Shown here one piece after another: positions 900 through 6,744 of a stretch of DNA of 23,847 nt; the stretch's first letter is position 1, and the number at the start of each line of letters is the position of its first letter. This stretch comes from a virus. The notes under the pieces were generated by a model, which was not told the origin of the DNA, ran no database searches, and saw only the letters and a program-made list of their open reading frames with translations. The stretch covers positions 1-23,847 of IMG/VR virus record IMGVR_UViG_3300032331_001184. The stretch is one strand, 5' to 3'. The position numbers and the translations under genes are program-made.

Positions 900-973
900 G
901 CTTCCTTAGCTCAAAGGTAGAGCAATCGCTTGATAAGCGATAGACGTTGGATCGATACCATCAGGAAGCACCA
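900..973 (+). tRNA. tRNA-Ile (GAT)
   Basis: Seven-pair acceptor stem (900-906 with 963-969), discriminator A970 and encoded CCA at 971-973. The anticodon loop TTGATAA sits between an ATCGC/GCGAT stem, giving anticodon GAT. The T-loop reads ATCGATA, so the usual T54 is A, and the T-stem has one T-T mismatch. First tRNA after the promoter. Confidence 0.93.
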
Positions 974-974
974 T

Positions 975-1050
975 TCAGGGTTAGTTCAATTGGTAGAACT
1001 ACGGACTTTGAATCCGTGTGTTGGTGGTTCGAGCCCATCACCCTGAACCA
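975..1050 (+). tRNA. tRNA-Gln (TTG)
   Basis: Acceptor 975-981 pairs with 1040-1046; A73 and CCA at 1048-1050. Anticodon loop 1006-1012 (CTTTGAA) gives TTG at 1008-1010. D-loop GG and a normal TTCGAGC T-loop are present. One base separates it from the preceding CCA. A second Gln tRNA (CTG) is at 5871. Confidence 0.95.
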
Positions 1051-1075
1051 GTTTTAACATGATGAAAGGTGAGAG

Positions 1076-1285
1076 ATGACAAAAGAAGATAAATATAAGG
1101 TGACATATTCGTTCTCTGTAGAGTATGAGAATGTTAATCTACCTGATGAGCCTAAGCATAGTCTTACTGTACTCACGTTTGACGGTACAGATGCTCATCT
1201 TGACCTGGTGTTAAATCAGTTTGCAACCTTTATGAGGGCCGCAGGCTATCATTGGGTTGACGGTCTTGAGGTTGCAAAGAGTTAA
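1076..1285 (+). CDS. Small hypothetical phage protein
   Basis: 69 residues, acidic, with no signal peptide or membrane segment. The first half alternates polar and hydrophobic residues as in a beta sheet, and the C-terminus (FATFMRAAGYHWVDGLEV) looks like a helix followed by a short strand. A ribosome binding site, GAAAGGTGAGAG, directly precedes the ATG. It lies between tRNA-Gln and tRNA-Cys, so it is probably co-transcribed with them. No family recognised. Confidence 0.7.
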   Translation: MTKEDKYKVTYSFSVEYENVNLPDEPKHSLTVLTFDGTDAHLDLVLNQFATFMRAAGYHWVDGLEVAKS

Positions 1286-1290
1286 TATCG

Positions 1291-1298
1291 GATAAATA
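1291..1298 (+). promoter_or_regulatory. Late-promoter-like NATAAATA box
   Basis: GATAAATA, followed by CTATAAT, eight bases before tRNA-Cys. T4-like late promoters use TATAAATA or NATAAATA near position -10, which would place the start almost exactly at the tRNA 5' end. It could give late expression of tRNA-Cys and the RlpA-like gene. The TATAAT immediately behind it lacks a matched -35. Confidence 0.4.
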
Positions 1299-1305
1299 CT
1301 ATAAT

Positions 1306-1382
1306 GTGACAGTGTTGCCGAACGGTTAGGCTGAGGTCTGCAAAACCTTTTTATGTGGGTTCGAGTCCCATCTGTCACTCCA
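1306..1382 (+). tRNA. tRNA-Cys (GCA)
   Basis: Acceptor 1306-1312 pairs fully with 1372-1378; discriminator T1379, CCA 1380-1382. The anticodon loop CTGCAAA (1338-1344) gives GCA at 1340-1342. D-loop GG and T-loop TTCGAGT are regular. Confidence 0.95.
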
Positions 1383-1397
1383 AAGAAAGGAGAAAAC

Positions 1398-1751
1398 ATG
1401 CTAAGAGTAATCACAGCATGTCTATCCGCTTTTTTGCTTACAGGTTGTGCCTTCTTCACGCATCCTATTAAAAGCGGTAAACAGCAAACCATGGTCGCCA
1501 GTTGGTATGAGCATGGAACTAGAACTGCGAATGGTGAAAGATTTAATCCTGACGGATTAACAGTTGCACATAAGAAATTACCATTCAATACAAAGATAGC
1601 CTTGACAAGAGGCGACAAAACAGTTATAGTAAGAGTAACTGATAGAGGCCCTTTCATTCGCGGAAGAGACCTTGACCTTTCGAGAGGTGTTGCAAAAGCT
1701 CTGGGTTGCATCCAGATAGGTGTTTGCACAGTTCACGCAGAGATCCTATAG
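1398..1751 (+). CDS. rlpA: RlpA-like double-psi beta-barrel lipoprotein (putative peptidoglycan lytic enzyme)
   Basis: 117 residues. A lipoprotein signal peptide ends in the lipobox LTGC (Cys17), followed directly by an RlpA-type double-psi beta-barrel: ASWYEHG, TANGE (Glu47), VAHKKLPF (His58), VTDRGPF (Asp82) and RDLDLS. Glu, His and Asp match the active-site trio described for Pseudomonas RlpA, a lytic transglycosylase of stem-less glycan strands. The SPOR domain of cellular RlpA is absent. I chose the start at 1398, behind AAAGGAG, instead of an in-frame ATG at 1353 inside tRNA-Cys. The stop TAG is bases 8-10 of tRNA-Asp, a 10-base overlap. The likely role is remodelling the host wall from the outer-membrane lipoprotein location. 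Confidence 0.9.
   Translation: MLRVITACLSAFLLTGCAFFTHPIKSGKQQTMVASWYEHGTRTANGERFNPDGLTVAHKKLPFNTKIALTRGDKTVIVRVTDRGPFIRGRDLDLSRGVAKALGCIQIGVCTVHAEIL
1602..1630 (+). promoter_or_regulatory. Possible internal sigma70 promoter in rlpA
   Basis: TTGACA at 1602-1607, a 17-base spacer and TATAGT at 1625-1630, about 110 bases upstream of tRNA-Asp. It lies inside coding sequence (Leu-Thr codons), so chance is possible. It matches the pattern of other promoters here, and could give independent tRNA-Asp transcription. Confidence 0.35.
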
Positions 1752-1815
1752 TTTAATGGTAGAACGCAGGTCTGTCTAACCTGTCGCGGGAGTTCGATTC
1801 TCCCTAGGATCGCCA
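1742..1815 (+). tRNA. tRNA-Asp (GTC), overlapping the rlpA stop
   Basis: Acceptor 1742-1748 pairs with 1805-1811; discriminator G1812 and CCA 1813-1815. Stem CAGGT/ACCTG encloses loop CTGTCTA, giving GTC at 1774-1776. Its T8-A9-G10 (1749-1751) is also the rlpA stop codon. Cutting the tRNA 5' end out of a shared transcript would leave rlpA mRNA without a stop. Confidence 0.95.
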
Positions 1816-1840
1816 CTATATAATATGTAAAGGTGAAAAC

Positions 1841-2299
1841 ATGAACGATGAAGAAAACAAAGAAGGTCTCTGGGAAGGCTTGAAAAAGCTCGGTGAAGCA
1901 TTACATGCTCGCGATGAAGACCTTGACAAACTAGCCGAAACCTGCGATTATGATATGAAGATCGCAGTTACTAGATGGGTAATGAAGCATATTGTTGCCC
2001 ATGCAGAAGAAGGCGGTTCTTATCGTTATCTGATCTATGATCGTCTTGATTTTGGACCAGATGCCTATGCTCCACTCTGTGGTGACGGAATGACTATCTC
2101 AAATATGTTTGACTTAAATCAAGCGGATGAGGTAGCAAAGGTTGCCAAGGAGCATGGTTATGATAAGATAAAGCCTGTCATTAATCTGTGTGATGAACCA
2201 GGATGTTATGATACAGTAAGTTGTGGTTTTCCTACTGATGATGGTGAGTATCGCCGCACCTGTTCTACCCACAGCAATTTTAAGCTAAACAAGGAGTAA
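1841..2299 (+). CDS. Hypothetical protein with a C-terminal zinc-binding-like Cys/His cluster
   Basis: 152 residues. The N-terminal third is a charged helical region (residues 5-55). A middle region about 60-112 contains YRYLIYDRL and DGMTISNMF. The C-terminus has Cys117, Cys122 (in DEPGC), Cys128 (in SCG), Cys141 and His144 (TCSTH), spaced like a small treble-clef or zinc-ribbon site. Similar C-terminal Cys clusters occur in uncharacterised phage proteins. Ribosome binding site AAAGGTG lies seven bases before the ATG. Function unknown; it sits between tRNA-Asp and an exported beta-barrel gene. Confidence 0.8.
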   Translation: MNDEENKEGLWEGLKKLGEALHARDEDLDKLAETCDYDMKIAVTRWVMKHIVAHAEEGGSYRYLIYDRLDFGPDAYAPLCGDGMTISNMFDLNQADEVAKVAKEHGYDKIKPVINLCDEPGCYDTVSCGFPTDDGEYRRTCSTHSNFKLNKE

Positions 2300-2303
2300 G
2301 TAT

Positions 2304-2840
2304 ATGTTTAAGTCTATCAAGTTGGCCACAGTTTCGTTGCTGGTCCTTTCGTCAGTAGCGGTCGCTGGGGATCTTCCTAGTAAGACTCAGCCTGCTATCC
2401 CATCTGTAAAGTCTATTACAGGTGATACTACATACTACGTTGGTGGTTTCATTGGCGCAGATGCAAAGAAGGTTGAACCATGGTACGGTTCTCTTCGTGG
2501 TGGTGTCAATGCTGGTTATAATCTAACCACATTTGCTGCTGTTGAAGCTGCATATGAATATCAGTATAGCCCTACAAAGGCTTTGCGTGGTAATGCCTTA
2601 TTCGCCAACGCTGTTGGTCAGATGAAGGTGCCTTTCATTCCCGTTGTGCCTTATGCACTAGCTGGTGTTGGTTATCGTATGAGTGATGCCAAAGATCAGG
2701 CCGTCTGGAATGTCGGTGGTGGTTTGAAGTATGAAGTCACTTCGAATATTGACCTTGACCTTCGTTATCGTTATGCGTCAGACTTTGATCGTAAGACACA
2801 TAACAATGCTGTAACTCTTGGTGCAGCATATAAGTTCTAA
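2304..2840 (+). CDS. Outer-membrane beta-barrel-like protein
   Basis: 178 residues with a Sec signal peptide (cleavage expected after AVA, residue 21). The mature part alternates polar and hydrophobic residues (YYVGGFIGAD, LRGGVNAGYNL, YALAGVGYRM, NVGGGLKYEV, LDLRYRYAS, AVTLGAAYKF) and ends in a C-terminal Phe, the BamA-recognition signature of outer-membrane proteins. This resembles the OmpA/opacity (OMP_b-brl) eight-strand barrels. Ribosome binding site AAGGAG lies seven bases before the ATG. In a phage this is accessory cargo: it may alter the infected cell surface, for instance by masking receptors. The surface role is inferred. Confidence 0.85.
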   Translation: MFKSIKLATVSLLVLSSVAVAGDLPSKTQPAIPSVKSITGDTTYYVGGFIGADAKKVEPWYGSLRGGVNAGYNLTTFAAVEAAYEYQYSPTKALRGNALFANAVGQMKVPFIPVVPYALAGVGYRMSDAKDQAVWNVGGGLKYEVTSNIDLDLRYRYASDFDRKTHNNAVTLGAAYKF

Positions 2841-2841
2841 G

Positions 2842-2868
2842 CTATAATAAGAATTATTCTTGTTATAG
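2842..2868 (+). other. Perfect AT-rich hairpin between the barrel gene and tRNA-Asn
   Basis: Twelve consecutive pairs (one G-T) close a TTA triloop two bases after the barrel stop and five bases before tRNA-Asn. The stem is AT-rich and followed only by TTTGA, so it is not a classical terminator. It may be an RNase III-type processing site, an mRNA 3' stabiliser or a weak terminator. Confidence 0.55.
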
Positions 2869-2873
2869 TTTGA

Positions 2874-2949
2874 TTCTCGGTAGCTCAGTTGGTAGAGCAT
2901 CTGACTGTTAATCAGAGGGTCCCTGGTTCGAGCCCAGGCCGAGGAGCCA
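2874..2949 (+). tRNA. tRNA-Asn (GTT)
   Basis: Acceptor 2874-2880 pairs with 2939-2945 (one T-G pair); discriminator G2946, CCA 2947-2949. Stem TCTGA/TCAGA with loop CTGTTAA gives GTT at 2907-2909. D-loop GG and T-loop TTCGAGC are canonical. Confidence 0.95.
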
Positions 2950-2977
2950 ATATGGATGGTCACATAATAGACCCGCA

Positions 2978-3007
2978 GGGGGCCAAGGTTAGCCCCCACC
3001 ATTTTTT
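2978..3007 (+). terminator. Rho-independent terminator after tRNA-Asn
   Basis: A six-pair GC stem, GGGGGC (2978-2983) with GCCCCC (2992-2997), has an 8-base loop; after three bases and an A comes a run of six T. It would end the first stretch of the tRNA operon ahead of the oxygenase gene at 3019. Confidence 0.7.
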
Positions 3008-3018
3008 AGAGGTTTGAT

Positions 3019-3633
3019 ATGGACGTATGTGATCTTTTTCCTTCTGGTTTTTCAGTACATAACTTGAGTGTTGACGAAAATAGCCTCAACAAAATAATGA
3101 AACTATCGAAAGACTCAGATAACTTTGATCGCAATAATAACGGAAATTTCTTACACAAAGAAACCTACATATTCGATACGATTCTAAAAGATTCGAAGTT
3201 GGTGAAAGATATATATGAGTGTATCGATGAGCATGTCACGAAGATTTCGGGTGAAAAACCTAATCTTCGAATCACGCAGAGTTGGTTGAATATCAATCCA
3301 CCAGGTACTAGCCATCATAGGCATAGTCATGGTAACAGTATATTGAGTGGTGTTCTCTACATACAAACGAACGAGTCGAGTGGTAATTTCGTAGTACATA
3401 CACCAAACAAAAGAGCATTTGGTGGTTTCGTAGAAGAGTTCAATAGATATAACTATGAGTTTATCTACTTCACACCTAAGAAATTTGATTTGTTCCTGTT
3501 TCAGAGTTCTCTAGACCACTCAGTAAACGTAAACGAATCACAAGAAGACCGTCTGTCAATATCATTCAATACGTTTTATCGCAGTGATTTCACGATGAAT
3601 GGTGGCCTGACAGAAATAAGATTGCCCGTATAG
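3019..3633 (+). CDS. Putative 2-oxoglutarate/Fe(II)-dependent oxygenase (TIGR02466-like)
   Basis: 204 residues. The double-stranded beta-helix signature is visible: W89, NPPGTSHHRHSHGN (metal-ligand candidates His102 and His104), LSGVLYIQ, a distal His167 in LDHSVN and Arg178 in EDRLSISFN, which would bind the 2OG carboxylate. Length fits the TIGR02466 group, common in T4-like phages. These enzymes hydroxylate or demethylate macromolecules, but the substrate is unknown. The ribosome binding site is weak (TAGAGG). The last 10 bases, including stop TAG, overlap tRNA-Thr, exactly as in the rlpA/tRNA-Asp pair. Confidence 0.82.
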   Translation: MDVCDLFPSGFSVHNLSVDENSLNKIMKLSKDSDNFDRNNNGNFLHKETYIFDTILKDSKLVKDIYECIDEHVTKISGEKPNLRITQSWLNINPPGTSHHRHSHGNSILSGVLYIQTNESSGNFVVHTPNKRAFGGFVEEFNRYNYEFIYFTPKKFDLFLFQSSLDHSVNVNESQEDRLSISFNTFYRSDFTMNGGLTEIRLPV

Positions 3634-3699
3634 CTCATCAGGTAGAGCAACTGATTTGTAATCAGTAGGCGGTGGGTTCGAGTCCTGCTGCGGGCACCA
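3624..3699 (+). tRNA. tRNA-Thr (TGT), overlapping the oxygenase stop
   Basis: Acceptor 3624-3630 pairs with 3689-3695; A73 and CCA 3697-3699. Stem ACTGA/TCAGT and loop TTTGTAA give TGT at 3657-3659. T8-A9-G10 (3631-3633) doubles as the stop codon of the upstream gene. Confidence 0.94.
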
Positions 3700-3704
3700 T
3701 ATAC

Positions 3705-3790
3705 GGAGCGTGGGCAGGATGGTAATGCAGCGGTTTGCTAAACCGTAGAACCGCAAGGTTCAATTGGTTCGATTCCAATACGCTCCGCCA
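3705..3790 (+). tRNA. tRNA-Ser (GCT)
   Basis: Class II tRNA. Acceptor 3705-3711 pairs with 3780-3786; G73 and CCA 3788-3790. Anticodon loop TTGCTAA gives GCT at 3737-3739. A long variable arm (GAACC-GCAA-GGTTC) supports Ser. Five bases separate it from tRNA-Thr. Confidence 0.94.
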
Positions 3791-3804
3791 AAGGATAAGT
3801 AGAA

Positions 3805-4257
3805 ATGAAAAAAGTAGCAGTCGCATTGTTAGTGAGTCTACTAACTATCGTTTCAGCCAGTGCTGATGAAGTGTCAATCATTGGTCATGGTTTCTCTAAG
3901 CATCTTGATAACCATAACTTCAGAGAAAGAAATTATGGTATTGGTCTTAGATATGAGCATGACGACTACGGTGTACAGATAGGTGCGTACCAGAATAGCA
4001 TATATAAGGATAGCGTATACATTGGTATTGATTGGAACTTAATTCAATATCAGACGAGTACATGTTTGAAGTATGATGCTGGTGTCTATTATGGTGCTGT
4101 TACAGGGTATACATATGCTGTGACACCTGTTGTAGGTATACAAGCGGCTGTTAAATGTGAGAATGTGTTTGTCAGAGTTCGAGCAATGCCAGAACCATTC
4201 TATAACTCTAAGGCTGTTGGCTCTATAGAGTTTGGGTTGGTGATAAAGAAGTTTTGA
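3805..4257 (+). CDS. Exported small beta-barrel-like protein
   Basis: 150 residues. A Sec signal peptide (positive MKK start, hydrophobic core, cleavage expected after SASA near residue 20) is followed by an all-beta pattern with aromatic girdles: NYGIGLRYEH, YGVQIGAYQNS, SVYIGIDWNL, AGVYYGAVTGY, VFVRVRAMP and a final FGLVIKKF ending in Phe. Length and alternation suit an eight-strand outer-membrane barrel; a PagP-like or acyl-hydrolase fold is possible, but I see no catalytic motif to assign. Two Cys (about 89 and 118) could form a disulfide. Stop TGA lies one base before tRNA-Trp. It is the second barrel-like cargo gene in the tRNA region and is not an obvious copy of the first. Confidence 0.78.
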   Translation: MKKVAVALLVSLLTIVSASADEVSIIGHGFSKHLDNHNFRERNYGIGLRYEHDDYGVQIGAYQNSIYKDSVYIGIDWNLIQYQTSTCLKYDAGVYYGAVTGYTYAVTPVVGIQAAVKCENVFVRVRAMPEPFYNSKAVGSIEFGLVIKKF

Positions 4258-4258
4258 T

Positions 4259-4332
4259 ATCGGTGAAGTGTTACGGTAGCACATCAGTCTCCAAAACTGA
4301 GGGCCTGGGTTCAACTCCTAGCACCGGTGCCA
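4259..4332 (+). tRNA. tRNA-Trp (CCA)
   Basis: Acceptor 4259-4265 pairs with 4322-4328 (one T-G); G73 and CCA 4330-4332. Stem TCAGT/ACTGA with loop CTCCAAA gives anticodon CCA at 4291-4293. D-loop GG and C56 are present. Confidence 0.94.
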
Positions 4333-4339
4333 TATCATC

Positions 4340-4384
4340 GCTGAACAGATACGTCTGTCAGCACCTCCAGCTCCAGGGCTGGAG
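4340..4384 (+). ncRNA. Twin-hairpin structured element between tRNA-Trp and tRNA-Ser
   Basis: Two adjacent stem-loops fill most of the 59-base gap. Hairpin 1 (4340-4362) has GCTG/CAGC and ACAGA/TCTGT stems separated by one bulged A, with loop TACG. Hairpin 2 (4365-4384) has seven GC-rich pairs (CTCCAGC/GCTGGAG) and a 6-base loop. There is no T-run, so they are not a standard terminator. They could be a processing or stability element, or a remnant of a lost tRNA. Not a known family to me. Confidence 0.45.
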
Positions 4385-4391
4385 ACTAATT

Positions 4392-4481
4392 GGAGTGCAT
4401 GTCTAGTCGGGGATACTAGCACCGCCTTGAAAGCGGTTGGAGCCGAAAGGCCAGGGGTTCGATTCCGCCATCACTCCGCCA
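4392..4481 (+). tRNA. tRNA-Ser (TGA)
   Basis: Class II tRNA. Acceptor 4392-4397 pairs with 4472-4477 (position 7 mismatched); G73 and CCA 4479-4481. Stem ACCGC/GCGGT with loop CTTGAAA gives TGA at 4428-4430. The long variable arm (TGGAGCC-GAAA-GGCCA) and large D-arm support Ser. Confidence 0.92.
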
Positions 4482-4496
4482 AACAGAGAGGGTGCT

Positions 4497-4706
4497 ATGA
4501 TTGTAAGTTCTTATAGTAAGGGTAATAGACGCGCAGAGATTCACAACGAAGGTAGAGGATTGTCTGTGTATCTATATGAGAATGATCTCTTCATTGAAAC
4601 GAGAGAACTGAAGAATTATAGCATCCATTATGCAGAAAGCCTAGCCGAGAATTTCGTAGAGGAGATCGGCAGCTTCTACAATATGAAGAAACTACTAGTA
4701 GAATAA
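4497..4706 (+). CDS. Small hypothetical protein
   Basis: 69 residues with beta-like segments (AEIHNEGRGLSVYLYEN, LFIETRELKNYSIHY) and a C-terminal helix (AESLAENFVEEIGSFY). No signal peptide or membrane segment. I chose the ATG at 4497 behind AGAGGGTG, since the longer in-frame start at 4437 lies inside tRNA-Ser. The stop lies four bases before tRNA-Gly. Family unknown. Confidence 0.68.
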   Translation: MIVSSYSKGNRRAEIHNEGRGLSVYLYENDLFIETRELKNYSIHYAESLAENFVEEIGSFYNMKKLLVE

Positions 4707-4710
4707 ATTT

Positions 4711-4784
4711 GCGGGGGTGATGTAATGATAGCCTGTCACCTTGCCAAGGTGAATGCAGGGGTTTGATTCCCCTTCCCCGCTCCA
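4711..4784 (+). tRNA. tRNA-Gly (GCC) with an A19-U56 elbow
   Basis: Acceptor 4711-4717 pairs with 4774-4780; T73 and CCA 4782-4784. Stem TCACC/GGTGA with loop TTGCCAA gives GCC at 4743-4745. The D-loop reads AATGATA (G18-A19) where GG is expected, and the T-loop reads TTTGATT, so C56 is U. The two changes together restore a Watson-Crick tertiary pair. Confidence 0.93.
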
Positions 4785-4790
4785 ATCTAT

Positions 4791-4861
4791 GCGGATTTAG
4801 TGTAACGATAGCACGGGTTGTTCCAACAACCGAGACTGGTTTAACTCCAGCCTCCGCTCCA
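4791..4861 (+). tRNA. Degraded or non-canonical tRNA-Gly-like gene (TCC/CCA loop)
   Basis: 71 bases ending in T73-CCA (4858-4861), aligned to a Gly tRNA (GCGGATT start, GTGT/GCAC D-stem). The acceptor has only five firm pairs (GCGGA/TCCGC). The anticodon arm pairs GGTTG/CAACC, leaving a six-base loop TTCCAA; aligning a seven-base loop for TCC gives two mismatches. The T-stem has four pairs. D-loop AACGATA (A19) and T-loop TTTAACT (U56) retain the elbow covariation. Likely a decaying tRNA-Gly (UCC), possibly still processed. Confidence 0.6.
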
Positions 4862-4883
4862 TCACCAAAGGAGTTCTAATGAC

Positions 4884-5249
4884 ATGGCATACTGGGGTTT
4901 TCATCTTCTCTTAGACTGCGCCGAACTTGACAACGCAGCGATTATAGACTATGATAATATCTATCACTTCGCAAAGCGCCTTGTCAAGGACATTGACATG
5001 GTTGCATATGGTGAACCACAGATTGTTAACTTTGGATCTGGTAACAAGGCCGGCTACACCTTGGTACAGTTGATTGAGACTTCCAATATCGTAGCCCACT
5101 TCGTACCTGATGATGGTATGGGTGGTAATGCAATGTATCTTGACGTTTTCTCCTGTAAAGAGTATGATGATGCGATTGTTATCGAACTAGTTAAGGAGTA
5201 TTTTGGCGCCAAGTATGTACGCCCGAATTATCTAACTAGACAGGCTTGA
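4884..5249 (+). CDS. speD: S-adenosylmethionine decarboxylase-like proenzyme (pyruvoyl type)
   Basis: 121 residues, the size of prokaryotic class 1B AdoMetDC. The enzyme makes decarboxylated S-adenosylmethionine, the aminopropyl donor for spermidine. Key positions are kept: the self-cleavage Ser67 (QLIETSNIVAH, compared with AESHISIH in bacterial enzymes), His72 and Cys91 (YLDVFSC). The residue after Ser is Asn where cellular enzymes have His, as I recall for phage homologues. Two starts compete behind AAAGGAG (4867-4873): an ATG at 4879 opens an 11-codon out-of-frame peptide, and the speD ATG at 4884 overlaps it. No speE-like partner is seen, so host spermidine synthase would finish the pathway. 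Confidence 0.82.
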   Translation: MAYWGFHLLLDCAELDNAAIIDYDNIYHFAKRLVKDIDMVAYGEPQIVNFGSGNKAGYTLVQLIETSNIVAHFVPDDGMGGNAMYLDVFSCKEYDDAIVIELVKEYFGAKYVRPNYLTRQA

Positions 5250-5250
5250 C

Positions 5251-5589
5251 ATGATTATCCCGACCAAGTATAATGTAGGTGATACCTTTTGGGTTCCTCG
5301 TTCGATGGACTTTTGGACAACCGAAGAACTCAGACACGAAGGTGAAGTGTGGGAACGACAGGTTAAAGAGATTCGACCTAGCGTCAAACAGAAAAAGATC
5401 ATAGGCATAGAAATTTCGGTGAACAAGAGCAACAAAGTAAATATTCAGTACTTTACAGTCAATGTTGGCCATGAAGATACTATGTCGCAGGTCTATCAGG
5501 AAATGACCATCAATAATTACACTGAAGAAGAAGCACTAGCAATAGCGAGAGATTATGCCGACAGGAATGAAACCTATTACGGAACTTAA
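5251..5589 (+). CDS. Hypothetical phage protein
   Basis: 112 residues starting one base after the speD stop, hence probably coupled. The N-terminus MIIPTKYNVGDTFWVPR looks like a small SH3-like or beta-barrel fold (a GDxVWVP-type motif common in phage and host small proteins). It is followed by beta strands (KIIGIEISVNKSNKVNIQYF) and a C-terminal helix with EEEALAIARDYADRNE. No catalytic motif is visible. Function unknown. Confidence 0.72.
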   Translation: MIIPTKYNVGDTFWVPRSMDFWTTEELRHEGEVWERQVKEIRPSVKQKKIIGIEISVNKSNKVNIQYFTVNVGHEDTMSQVYQEMTINNYTEEEALAIARDYADRNETYYGT

Positions 5590-5788
5590 TCTGAAGTATC
5601 CGTTCGATGAAACTTCAGAAGGAACTTCACGCAATTATACTCTGCTGCACGCCAACTACAATTGGTGCCTAGATATCTTCAAGAGGGTTGACGAGGTGCT
5701 CAAAGCAGAGTATTATACACCTCAAGAAAAGATTGATGGGATTACTTGGCTCATCAAACAAGGATTGAAAGCCGAGTCAGAAGAATAA
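5555..5788 (+). CDS. Small hypothetical helical protein overlapping its upstream neighbour
   Basis: 77 residues from the ATG at 5555, or 73 from the in-frame ATG at 5567, which has AGG just before it; either start overlaps the upstream gene by 23-35 bases in another frame. The body is helical and charged (NYNWCLDIFKRVDEVLKAEY, EKIDGITWLIKQGLKAE). The stop TAA ends at 5788 and tRNA-Ala begins at 5789 with no gap. Family unknown. Confidence 0.65.
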   Translation: MPTGMKPITELNLKYPFDETSEGTSRNYTLLHANYNWCLDIFKRVDEVLKAEYYTPQEKIDGITWLIKQGLKAESEE

Positions 5789-5864
5789 GGGGGTATAGCT
5801 CAGTTGGGAGAGCGTCTGCTTTGCAAGCAGAATGTCGGCGGTTCGATCCCGTCTACCTCCACCA
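5789..5864 (+). tRNA. tRNA-Ala (TGC)
   Basis: Acceptor 5789-5795 pairs with 5854-5860 (one G-T); A73 and CCA 5862-5864. Stem TCTGC/GCAGA with loop TTTGCAA gives TGC at 5822-5824. It starts directly after the stop of the upstream gene. Confidence 0.95.
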
Positions 5865-5870
5865 GTTTGT

Positions 5871-5946
5871 TAGGGATTAGTTCAGTTGGTAGAACGGCAG
5901 ACTCTGAATCTGCATGTCCGAGGTTCGAGCCCTTGATCCCTAGCCA
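5871..5946 (+). tRNA. tRNA-Gln (CTG)
   Basis: Acceptor 5871-5877 pairs fully with 5936-5942; G73 and CCA 5944-5946. Stem GCAGA/TCTGC with loop CTCTGAA gives CTG at 5904-5906. With the TTG isoacceptor at 975, both Gln codons are read by dedicated phage tRNAs. Confidence 0.94.
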
Positions 5947-6023
5947 GTCCCGTTAGCTCAACTGAATAGAGCATCGGTCTACGAAACCGAAGGTTGGGAG
6001 TTTGACTCTCTCACGGGACGCCA
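5947..6023 (+). tRNA. tRNA-Arg (ACG) with an A19-U56 elbow
   Basis: Starts at the base after the previous CCA. Acceptor 5947-5953 pairs with 6013-6019; G73 and CCA 6021-6023. Stem TCGGT/ACCGA with loop CTACGAA gives ACG at 5981-5983, which needs A34-to-inosine editing by host TadA. The D-loop AACTGAATA carries A19 and the T-loop TTTGACT carries U56, the compensatory pair also seen in the two Gly-type tRNAs. Confidence 0.94.
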
Positions 6024-6039
6024 TTTAAGGAAGAAGAAA

Positions 6040-6147
6040 ATGAAGACGCTAAATGAATTACTTGACATAGCCAAAATAGCTGCTATACTATTTTGGATGC
6101 CAATCATCGTAATGACCTTTCTAGGAATTATGATTAGTTTCGAATAA
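6040..6147 (+). CDS. 35-residue single-span membrane peptide
   Basis: ATG at 6040 behind AAGGAAGAAG, stop TAA at 6145-6147, one base before tRNA-Leu. After an amphipathic start (MKTLNELLDIAK) comes a continuous hydrophobic stretch (IAAILFWMPIIVMTFLGIMI) long enough to cross a membrane once. It lies between tRNA-Arg and tRNA-Leu, as other small cargo genes do. A near-consensus promoter is embedded in the same DNA, so the frame could instead be a by-product of promoter sequence. Moderate confidence. Confidence 0.45.
   Translation: MKTLNELLDIAKIAAILFWMPIIVMTFLGIMISFE
6062..6089 (+). promoter_or_regulatory. Near-consensus sigma70 promoter upstream of tRNA-Leu
   Basis: TTGACA at 6062-6067, a 16-base spacer and TATACT at 6084-6089, followed by ATTT. 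The extended TATACTATTT is identical to that of the promoter at 852-880. It would start about 50 bases before tRNA-Leu and may re-initiate transcription of the distal tRNAs. Confidence 0.6.
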
Positions 6148-6148
6148 T

Positions 6149-6225
6149 GCCCCTGTAGCCCAACTGGTAGAGGTGCCGGTCTTAGAAACCGTAGGTTGTC
6201 AGTTCGAATCTGACCTGGGGCACCA
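6149..6225 (+). tRNA. tRNA-Leu (TAG) with a short variable loop
   Basis: 77 bases. Acceptor 6149-6155 pairs with 6215-6221 except T6-T67; A73 and CCA 6223-6225. The anticodon loop CTTAGAA gives TAG at 6183-6185, reading CUA. The D-arm (three-pair stem, TGGTAGA loop) looks Leu-like, but the variable region is only AGGTT, whereas bacterial Leu tRNAs are class II with a long arm. Either a reduced Leu tRNA or one with a shifted anticodon. Confidence 0.88.
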
Positions 6226-6227
6226 AA

Positions 6228-6318
6228 TTTAGTCCTTGCCATAGGGACAGGCCATTCTTCGTGGCTGGTATCAACGGCATGATATCTAGTGTCAGGTGCG
6301 AGCATGACCTAACTAAAG
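6228..6318 (+). ncRNA. Cloverleaf-like tRNA remnant or structured RNA
   Basis: Six pairs close the ends (6228-6233 with 6312-6317). Inside are a weak D-like hairpin (6234-6245), an anticodon-like arm GGCCA/TGGCT with a seven-base loop TTCTTCG (6250-6266), a variable-arm-like hairpin of seven pairs (6267-6273 with 6280-6286), and an imperfect T-like arm (6291-6308) containing GTGCGAGC where GTTCGAGC is expected. No CCA follows. It looks like a decayed class II tRNA between the two Leu tRNAs. A functional tRNA-like RNA cannot be excluded. Confidence 0.45.
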
Positions 6319-6334
6319 ACGCAGAAGAATAATA

Positions 6335-6411
6335 GCCCGTGTAGTCCAATTGGTAGAGGCGGCGGATTCAAACCCCGCATGTTGTGGGTTCGAGTCCCTC
6401 CTCGGGCACCA
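6335..6411 (+). tRNA. tRNA-Leu (CAA) with a short variable loop
   Basis: 77 bases, the same architecture as the Leu (TAG) gene. Acceptor 6335-6341 pairs with 6401-6407 except T6-T67; A73 and CCA 6409-6411. Stem GCGGA/CCCGC (A-C at the loop end) with loop TTCAAAC gives CAA at 6369-6371, reading UUG. The variable loop is ATGTT. Shared length, mismatch and D-loop show the two are paralogues. Confidence 0.88.
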
Positions 6412-6431
6412 ATCTAGAAGGAGAAGTGAGC

Positions 6432-6668
6432 ATGAATAAGTTACTTGTAGTATGTGGGTTGGCTTTGACACTTGCTGGTTGTAATGCAACCGTGTATCCG
6501 TCGAGGCCTATGGTGATTGATCTTGAGACACGACCACCTTTGGTTGTGCCTCGTGCATATGAACCTCTTCCACCTCCTCGCCCATACATGCACAACCATC
6601 GTCGTTGTGGCACTATTTGGGATAATACACCTCGTGGCTATCGTGAACGGGTGGTCTGTAATTACTAA
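6432..6668 (+). CDS. Small putative lipoprotein, Pro/Arg-rich
   Basis: 78 residues. A type II signal peptide ends in LAGC (Cys17), followed by a Pro- and Arg-rich segment (PSRPMVIDLETRPPLVVP, PLPPPRPYMHNHRR) and a C-terminal CGTIWDNTPRGYRERVVCNY with a Cys pair that could form a disulfide. I chose the ATG at 6432 behind AAGGAGAAG; the longer frame from 6384 begins inside tRNA-Leu. The stop TAA lies directly against tRNA-His. A probable outer-membrane lipoprotein of unknown role. Confidence 0.8.
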   Translation: MNKLLVVCGLALTLAGCNATVYPSRPMVIDLETRPPLVVPRAYEPLPPPRPYMHNHRRCGTIWDNTPRGYRERVVCNY

Positions 6669-6744
6669 CCTAACTTAGTGTTGTTGGTCAGCACGGATGA
6701 TTGTGGATCATCAAGACTTGGTTCGAATCCAAGAGTTAGGACCA
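6669..6744 (+). tRNA. tRNA-His (GTG), alphaproteobacterial type
   Basis: Acceptor 6669-6675 pairs fully with 6734-6740; A73 and CCA 6742-6744. Stem GATGA/TCATC with loop TTGTGGA gives GTG at 6703-6705; T-loop TTCGAAT. The base before position 1 is A (the end of a stop codon) and the discriminator is A, so the near-universal G-1:C73 pair is missing. That loss is documented for many alphaproteobacteria with matching HisRS changes. Confidence 0.95.

Follow-up and report, generated by a model that had tools for sequence, protein, structure and literature searches.

The tertiary pair formed by G19 and C56 at the tRNA elbow is conventionally presented as an invariant feature of tRNAs. A canonical bacterial elongator tRNA combines this pair with a cloverleaf, U33, G18, U54-U55, A58 and an encoded CCA. 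The staphylococcal cell-wall tRNA-Gly, in which G18G19 and the T-loop are lost, shows reduced EF-Tu binding. A third point of comparison is tRNA-Ile1 (GAU) of the E. coli phage T5 (AY543070, 28210–28286), a member of a large phage tRNA array, whose D-loop AGCGATCTA and T-loop TTTAAAT place A at position 19 and U at position 56; according to the note in its record, replacement of the anticodon gives an amber suppressor. Neither the A19-U56 pair nor a phage 19-56 variant is named in the open-access literature searched, and parts of the finding described here may have been noted before in the subscription literature on T5 tRNAs. The elbow is described as being recognized by way of the flat surface that the 19-56 pair presents (PMC4810234).

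The window, by which we mean the whole 23,847-base IMG/VR virus fragment analyzed here, contains an array of 17 tRNA genes on the plus strand (900–6744), three of which have A19-U56 and the other 14 G19-C56. ARAGORN reports 14 tRNAs in the window, the Rfam model 15, and a register-aware scanner 14; the scanner disregards positions 19 and 56, needs U33, A58 and a good cloverleaf, and gave a single hit, itself below threshold, when run on three shuffled versions of the window. The set of 17, which includes by-eye reading, consists of the 14 ARAGORN genes plus tRNA-Gly (GCC) at 4711–4784, tRNA-Ser (UGA) at ~4392–4481 and a Gly-like gene at 4791–4861. Twelve of the 14 scanner genes are G18G19/C56 and two, Gly-GCC and tRNA-Arg (ACG), are A19/U56, while Cys (1306–1382) and Ser-UGA were read by eye as G19/C56. 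The preliminary description had counted exactly three A19/U56 tRNAs in the window, and that count holds for the full set of 17. Given the viral background rate derived below (20/1710), the chance of at least two such tRNAs in 14 is p = 0.011, and of at least three in 17, p = 0.001. The Ser-UGA gene (4392–4481) is absent from the output of ARAGORN and of the Rfam tRNA model, and scores 35.7 bits, below the cut-off, as a tRNA-Sec.

Gly-GCC (4711–4784, plus strand; A19 at 4728, U56 at 4764), with D-loop AATGATA and T-loop TTTGATT, was detected by Rfam (52.4 bits) and the scanner, and Arg-ACG (5947–6023, plus strand; A19 at 5965, U56 at 6003), with D-loop AACTGAATA and T-loop TTTGACT, by ARAGORN, Rfam (59.4 bits) and the scanner. 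Both scores exceed the gathering cut-off of RF00005 (29 bits), and membership of that family stands because Rfam does not require G19-C56; the cloverleaf, encoded CCA, U33, G18, U54, U55 and A58 are all present by the scanner. Since both Gly genes have 7-nt D-loops, the register at position 19 is unambiguous in them; in Arg-ACG, the sole G eligible as G18 leaves A at 19. All three genes differ from the canonical elongator in having A-U instead of G-C at 19-56, with Watson-Crick pairing retained. The window's tRNA-Gly shares with the staphylococcal tRNA-Gly an altered contact between the D- and T-loops, but the trio keeps G18, U54, U55 and a 19-56 pair, and therefore does not show the loss of G18 and T54/U55 of the staphylococcal non-translating type.

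The third gene (4791–4861, plus strand; A19 at 4808, U56 at 4842) is 71 nt long, with a 4-bp T stem, a 6-nt anticodon loop, D-loop AACGATA and T-loop TTTAACT. It scores 20.3 bits, below the Rfam cut-off of 29, although it aligns with the tRNA model in colinear order, and like Gly-GCC it is missing from the ARAGORN output. Orthologues were found at L005:6200–6270 (96% identical), L017:5886–5956, L652:485–556, L006:595–666 and L013:6132–6202. All six members are 71–72 nt long with a 4-bp T stem, and four have a 6-nt anticodon loop. Despite the short T stem, the cloverleaf, CCA, U33, G18, U54, U55 and A58 are in place; the anticodon stem is paired in 30 of 30 cells, each of the five pairs having changed on both sides somewhere among the members, and 19-56 is A-U in five members and G-C in L013. 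Judged by these sequence features, the gene is a conserved short tRNA-Gly overlooked by automatic finders rather than a pseudogene.

Covariation between positions 19 and 56 was measured in a viral sample of 1,710 distinct tRNAs from 296 loci. The tRNA-bearing loci were drawn by patterns in which 19 and 56 are unspecified, and every tRNA inside was scored; all frequencies rest solely on loci drawn in this way, with sampling anchors that demand G18 and viral contigs among which some prophage or host sequence may be present. Among the U55-bearing tRNAs, the Watson-Crick pairs are G-C (1621), A-U (20), C-G (4) and U-A (2), and the other states include G.U (1), A.C (1) and A19 with A56 (2). A19-U56, at ~1% of phage tRNAs, thus outnumbers its two single-step intermediates 20 to 2 (~10:1), and a Fisher test of G/A by C/U at the two positions gives 6e-44. 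When related tRNAs are collapsed, 25 independent groups with a non-GC Watson-Crick pair remain; 10,000 shuffles gave 0.5 such groups on average and never more than 5. The 20 unbiased A19-U56 cases carry 12 different anticodons, and the isotype table of a pattern-picked A-U set is likewise broad. The A19-U56 elbow is not special to the phage of the window. Two apparent mismatch rows, ‘C19/C56’ and ‘T19/C56’, were dropped as products of long or shifted loops, as was an apparent A19.C56 in Caulobacter phage CcrBL9, where AGCGGAATTAA reads as G18G19.

These frequencies bear on two alternatives. Were the genes decaying pseudogenes, their matched changes would be a matter of chance; a T11.C24 mismatch in the D stem of Gly-GCC and the shortness of the Gly-like gene could be read that way. 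The covariation contradicts such a reading, the mismatch is conserved in Gly-GCC orthologues, and the fully paired, compensated anticodon stem of the Gly-like family speaks against it as well, so that decay is very improbable; the earlier claim that the double change is selected covariation and not decay is borne out. A mutation bias toward A+T, pushing a neutral G-C pair to A-U, would fit the fact that A-U is the commonest replacement and that both changes are transitions. The G+C content of A-U loci is, however, the same as that of the others (0.404 versus 0.402, p = 0.79), C-G and U-A occur too, and at a neutral pair G.U and A.C should be frequent; we regard this bias as a quite unlikely cause.

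In close relatives of the window's phage, the two positions also change together. Through an RNase H-like protein that adjoins the array, 80 relatives with 321 tRNAs were gathered, in which the 19-56 pair is G-C in 302, A-U in six and U-A in three, and neither G.U nor A.C occurs among the 321; the independent variation of 19 and 56 that would have spoken against covariation did not occur. Arg-ACG has A-U in the window, L642, L644, L666, L177, L228 and L118, and G-C in L643 and L645, while for Gly-GCC the window is the sole case of A-U, and L645, L652, L684, L705 and others have G-C. Trees were built with positions 19 and 56 masked; they require about four changes for Arg-ACG and seven or eight for Gly-TCC, although the sequences are short and the trees weak, which makes exact counts of origins uncertain. 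The window's Gly-GCC nests in a supported clade (97) of G-C orthologues. In L034, which is less closely related, two tRNAs have A19-U56: Glu-TTC and a possible amber suppressor whose anticodon is CTA (L034:3097–3171).

Cellular tRNAs were compared in two ways. In 250 bacterial tRNAs drawn like the viral set, A19-U56 was not found, a sample too small to separate the rates (all Watson-Crick variants, p = 0.07). In a matched loop class, GxNTA, A19-U56 is found in six of 230 viral tRNAs against one match per ~3,900 expected G-C counterparts, a number extrapolated from 13 genomes, in 398 Pseudomonadota genomes (p = 2e-7); within this class, and for a cellular side that is chiefly Pseudomonadota, the pair is ~100 times rarer than in viral loci. 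The GATA-form pattern was uninformative as a measure, with 0 GATA/T versus 485 GGTA/C in the unbiased viral set, and GxNTA was used instead. The only cellular cases seen come from G216, a 0.9-Mb genome of the Pseudomonadota group with A19-U56 in two of 33 scored tRNAs, Ala-CGC and Val-TAC (L437:1484–1559 and L736), which also supplied the sole credible cellular GATA-form case. Such a genome is what one would look for if phages had captured tRNAs from cells in whose lineage A19-U56 was already in use. But G216 alone matched among the 398 genomes, and the closest kin of the window's Gly-GCC in the tree are phage orthologues with G19-C56, which places the origin of its change in phages; capture is therefore a most improbable source.

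The preliminary description had also suggested that the A-U elbow evades an elbow-recognising nuclease or host factor, or tunes processing. In its sharpest form, this would mean selection for escape from a host factor, be it a nuclease, a toxin or a modification enzyme, with sequence-specific recognition of G19-C56 or of the D/T loops. Phage tRNAs that escape anticodon-loop nucleases are known (PMC10264068), and the PARIS nuclease AriB contacts the D-loop base-specifically, a change at U16 impairing cutting (PMC12409363). In both systems, as in the window, phage tRNAs diverge from those of the host at conserved sites, but there it is the anticodon arm that is altered and the nuclease is shown or predicted, whereas here it is the elbow. 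Noncanonical elbows are unevenly distributed, with some phage genomes holding several (29 within-locus pairs versus 8.5 expected), so constraint or selection on the elbow differs between phages. Against evasion, the altered tRNAs are spread over many isotypes, with the 12 anticodons in 20 cases not concentrated in nuclease-targeted isoacceptors; only three of the 17 window tRNAs, and a minority in each phage, are altered; sister-phage orthologues keep G-C, and the pair flips within orthologue groups, maybe in both directions; and the motif of the modification enzyme TruB is left intact. A comparison with known anti-phage tRNA nucleases showed that the defence tRNases looked at in the literature cut the anticodon arm or the variable loop, and an elbow-reading or elbow-cutting defence nuclease was not found in the literature searched. 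Neither evasion nor tuned processing is supported by these observations, and evasion is, in our judgment, unlikely. The same holds for the broader idea that some phages recode several tRNA elbows (A19-U56, C19-G56, U19-A56 and A18-G55) under selection by a sequence-reading host factor, to which we give a low probability; if true, elbow recoding would add a so far undescribed branch to the defence and counter-defence that centre on phage tRNAs.

We consider it likely, from the sequence comparisons, that the pair has undergone compensatory evolution, in which working auxiliary phage tRNAs retain the shape of the elbow while its letters drift. The letters change with pairing kept, the change has arisen repeatedly, intermediates are nearly absent, and A19-U56 is rare in cellular genomes. 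On the simplest account, selection in phage tRNAs acts on pairing and leaves the choice of letters almost free. By paired substitution, the exposed tertiary pair G19-C56 would be swapped for the shape-equivalent A19-U56, and selection would maintain pairing and with it the flat surface to which RNase P, the ribosome and modifying enzymes bind. Which bases form the pair would be less constrained in phages than in cells, maybe owing to the auxiliary role of phage tRNAs, host copies remaining available, and single-mutant states would be disfavored. A-U may dominate over C-G and U-A because transitions suffice to produce it and a pyrimidine acceptable to TruB stays at position 56. The clustering of noncanonical elbows in particular phages counts against compensatory drift of this kind, as uniform neutral drift does not predict it. 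Phage tRNAs offer double mutants made by nature, with each Watson-Crick combination represented, and thereby separate the shape, which the cell reads, from the letters, which it does not.

The modification motif and cultured phages are consistent with working tRNAs. GUUYRANYC, the stated target motif of TruB (PMC7912444), is retained in 20 of 20 unbiased A19-U56 tRNAs. Stem mismatches in A-U tRNAs are not above those of their neighbors, in a set that is largely pattern-picked and favors intact T arms. T5 tRNA-Ile1 has the same A19-U56 elbow and GUUYRANYC T arm as the window trio, from which it differs in isoacceptor, in D-loop and in coming from a phage that is in culture and for which a suppressor test is recorded. 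By analogy with this tRNA, annotated as functional in E. coli, an A-U elbow would be compatible with function, and T5 brings the elbow question within testing reach in laboratory E. coli. Phage T4 has no A19-U56 tRNAs. Stenotrophomonas phage DLP_6 has two, Gln-TTG and Gly-TCC (L755:2156–2230 and 4525–4599; KU682439.2, 107898–107972 and 110267–110341), both unannotated; given these and the omissions of ARAGORN in the window, A-U-elbow tRNAs can escape gene finders, and phage tRNA sets are maybe undercounted. A Met tRNA (L263) and a Thr tRNA (L123) had no Blast match in cultured phages.

Other tertiary pairs are swapped as well. In 27 of the 1,710 viral tRNAs, and in none of the 250 bacterial ones, the T-loop reads U54-G55-C56 in place of UUC, together with A18-G19 in the D-loop (examples in L083, L164, L544, L538 and L278, and Lys-TTT of Salicola phage SCTP-2 at L756:958–1033). 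The 18-55 contact changes jointly from G-U to A-G, a second elbow covariation; a first reading of these tRNAs as having a broken G18 was dropped, as they are A18G19 with G55. In the window, tRNA-Trp (4259–4332) has A8 and T14 replacing U8 and A14, and A8/U14 occurs in 22 of the 1,710 viral tRNAs. An S-adenosylmethionine decarboxylase gene (4884–5249) lies within the tRNA array, directly after both Gly tRNAs. The two Leu tRNAs UAG and CAA (6149–6225 and 6335–6411) have a 5-nt variable loop, where Leu tRNAs of bacteria typically carry a long arm, and the same short loop is found in L005, L006 and L008.
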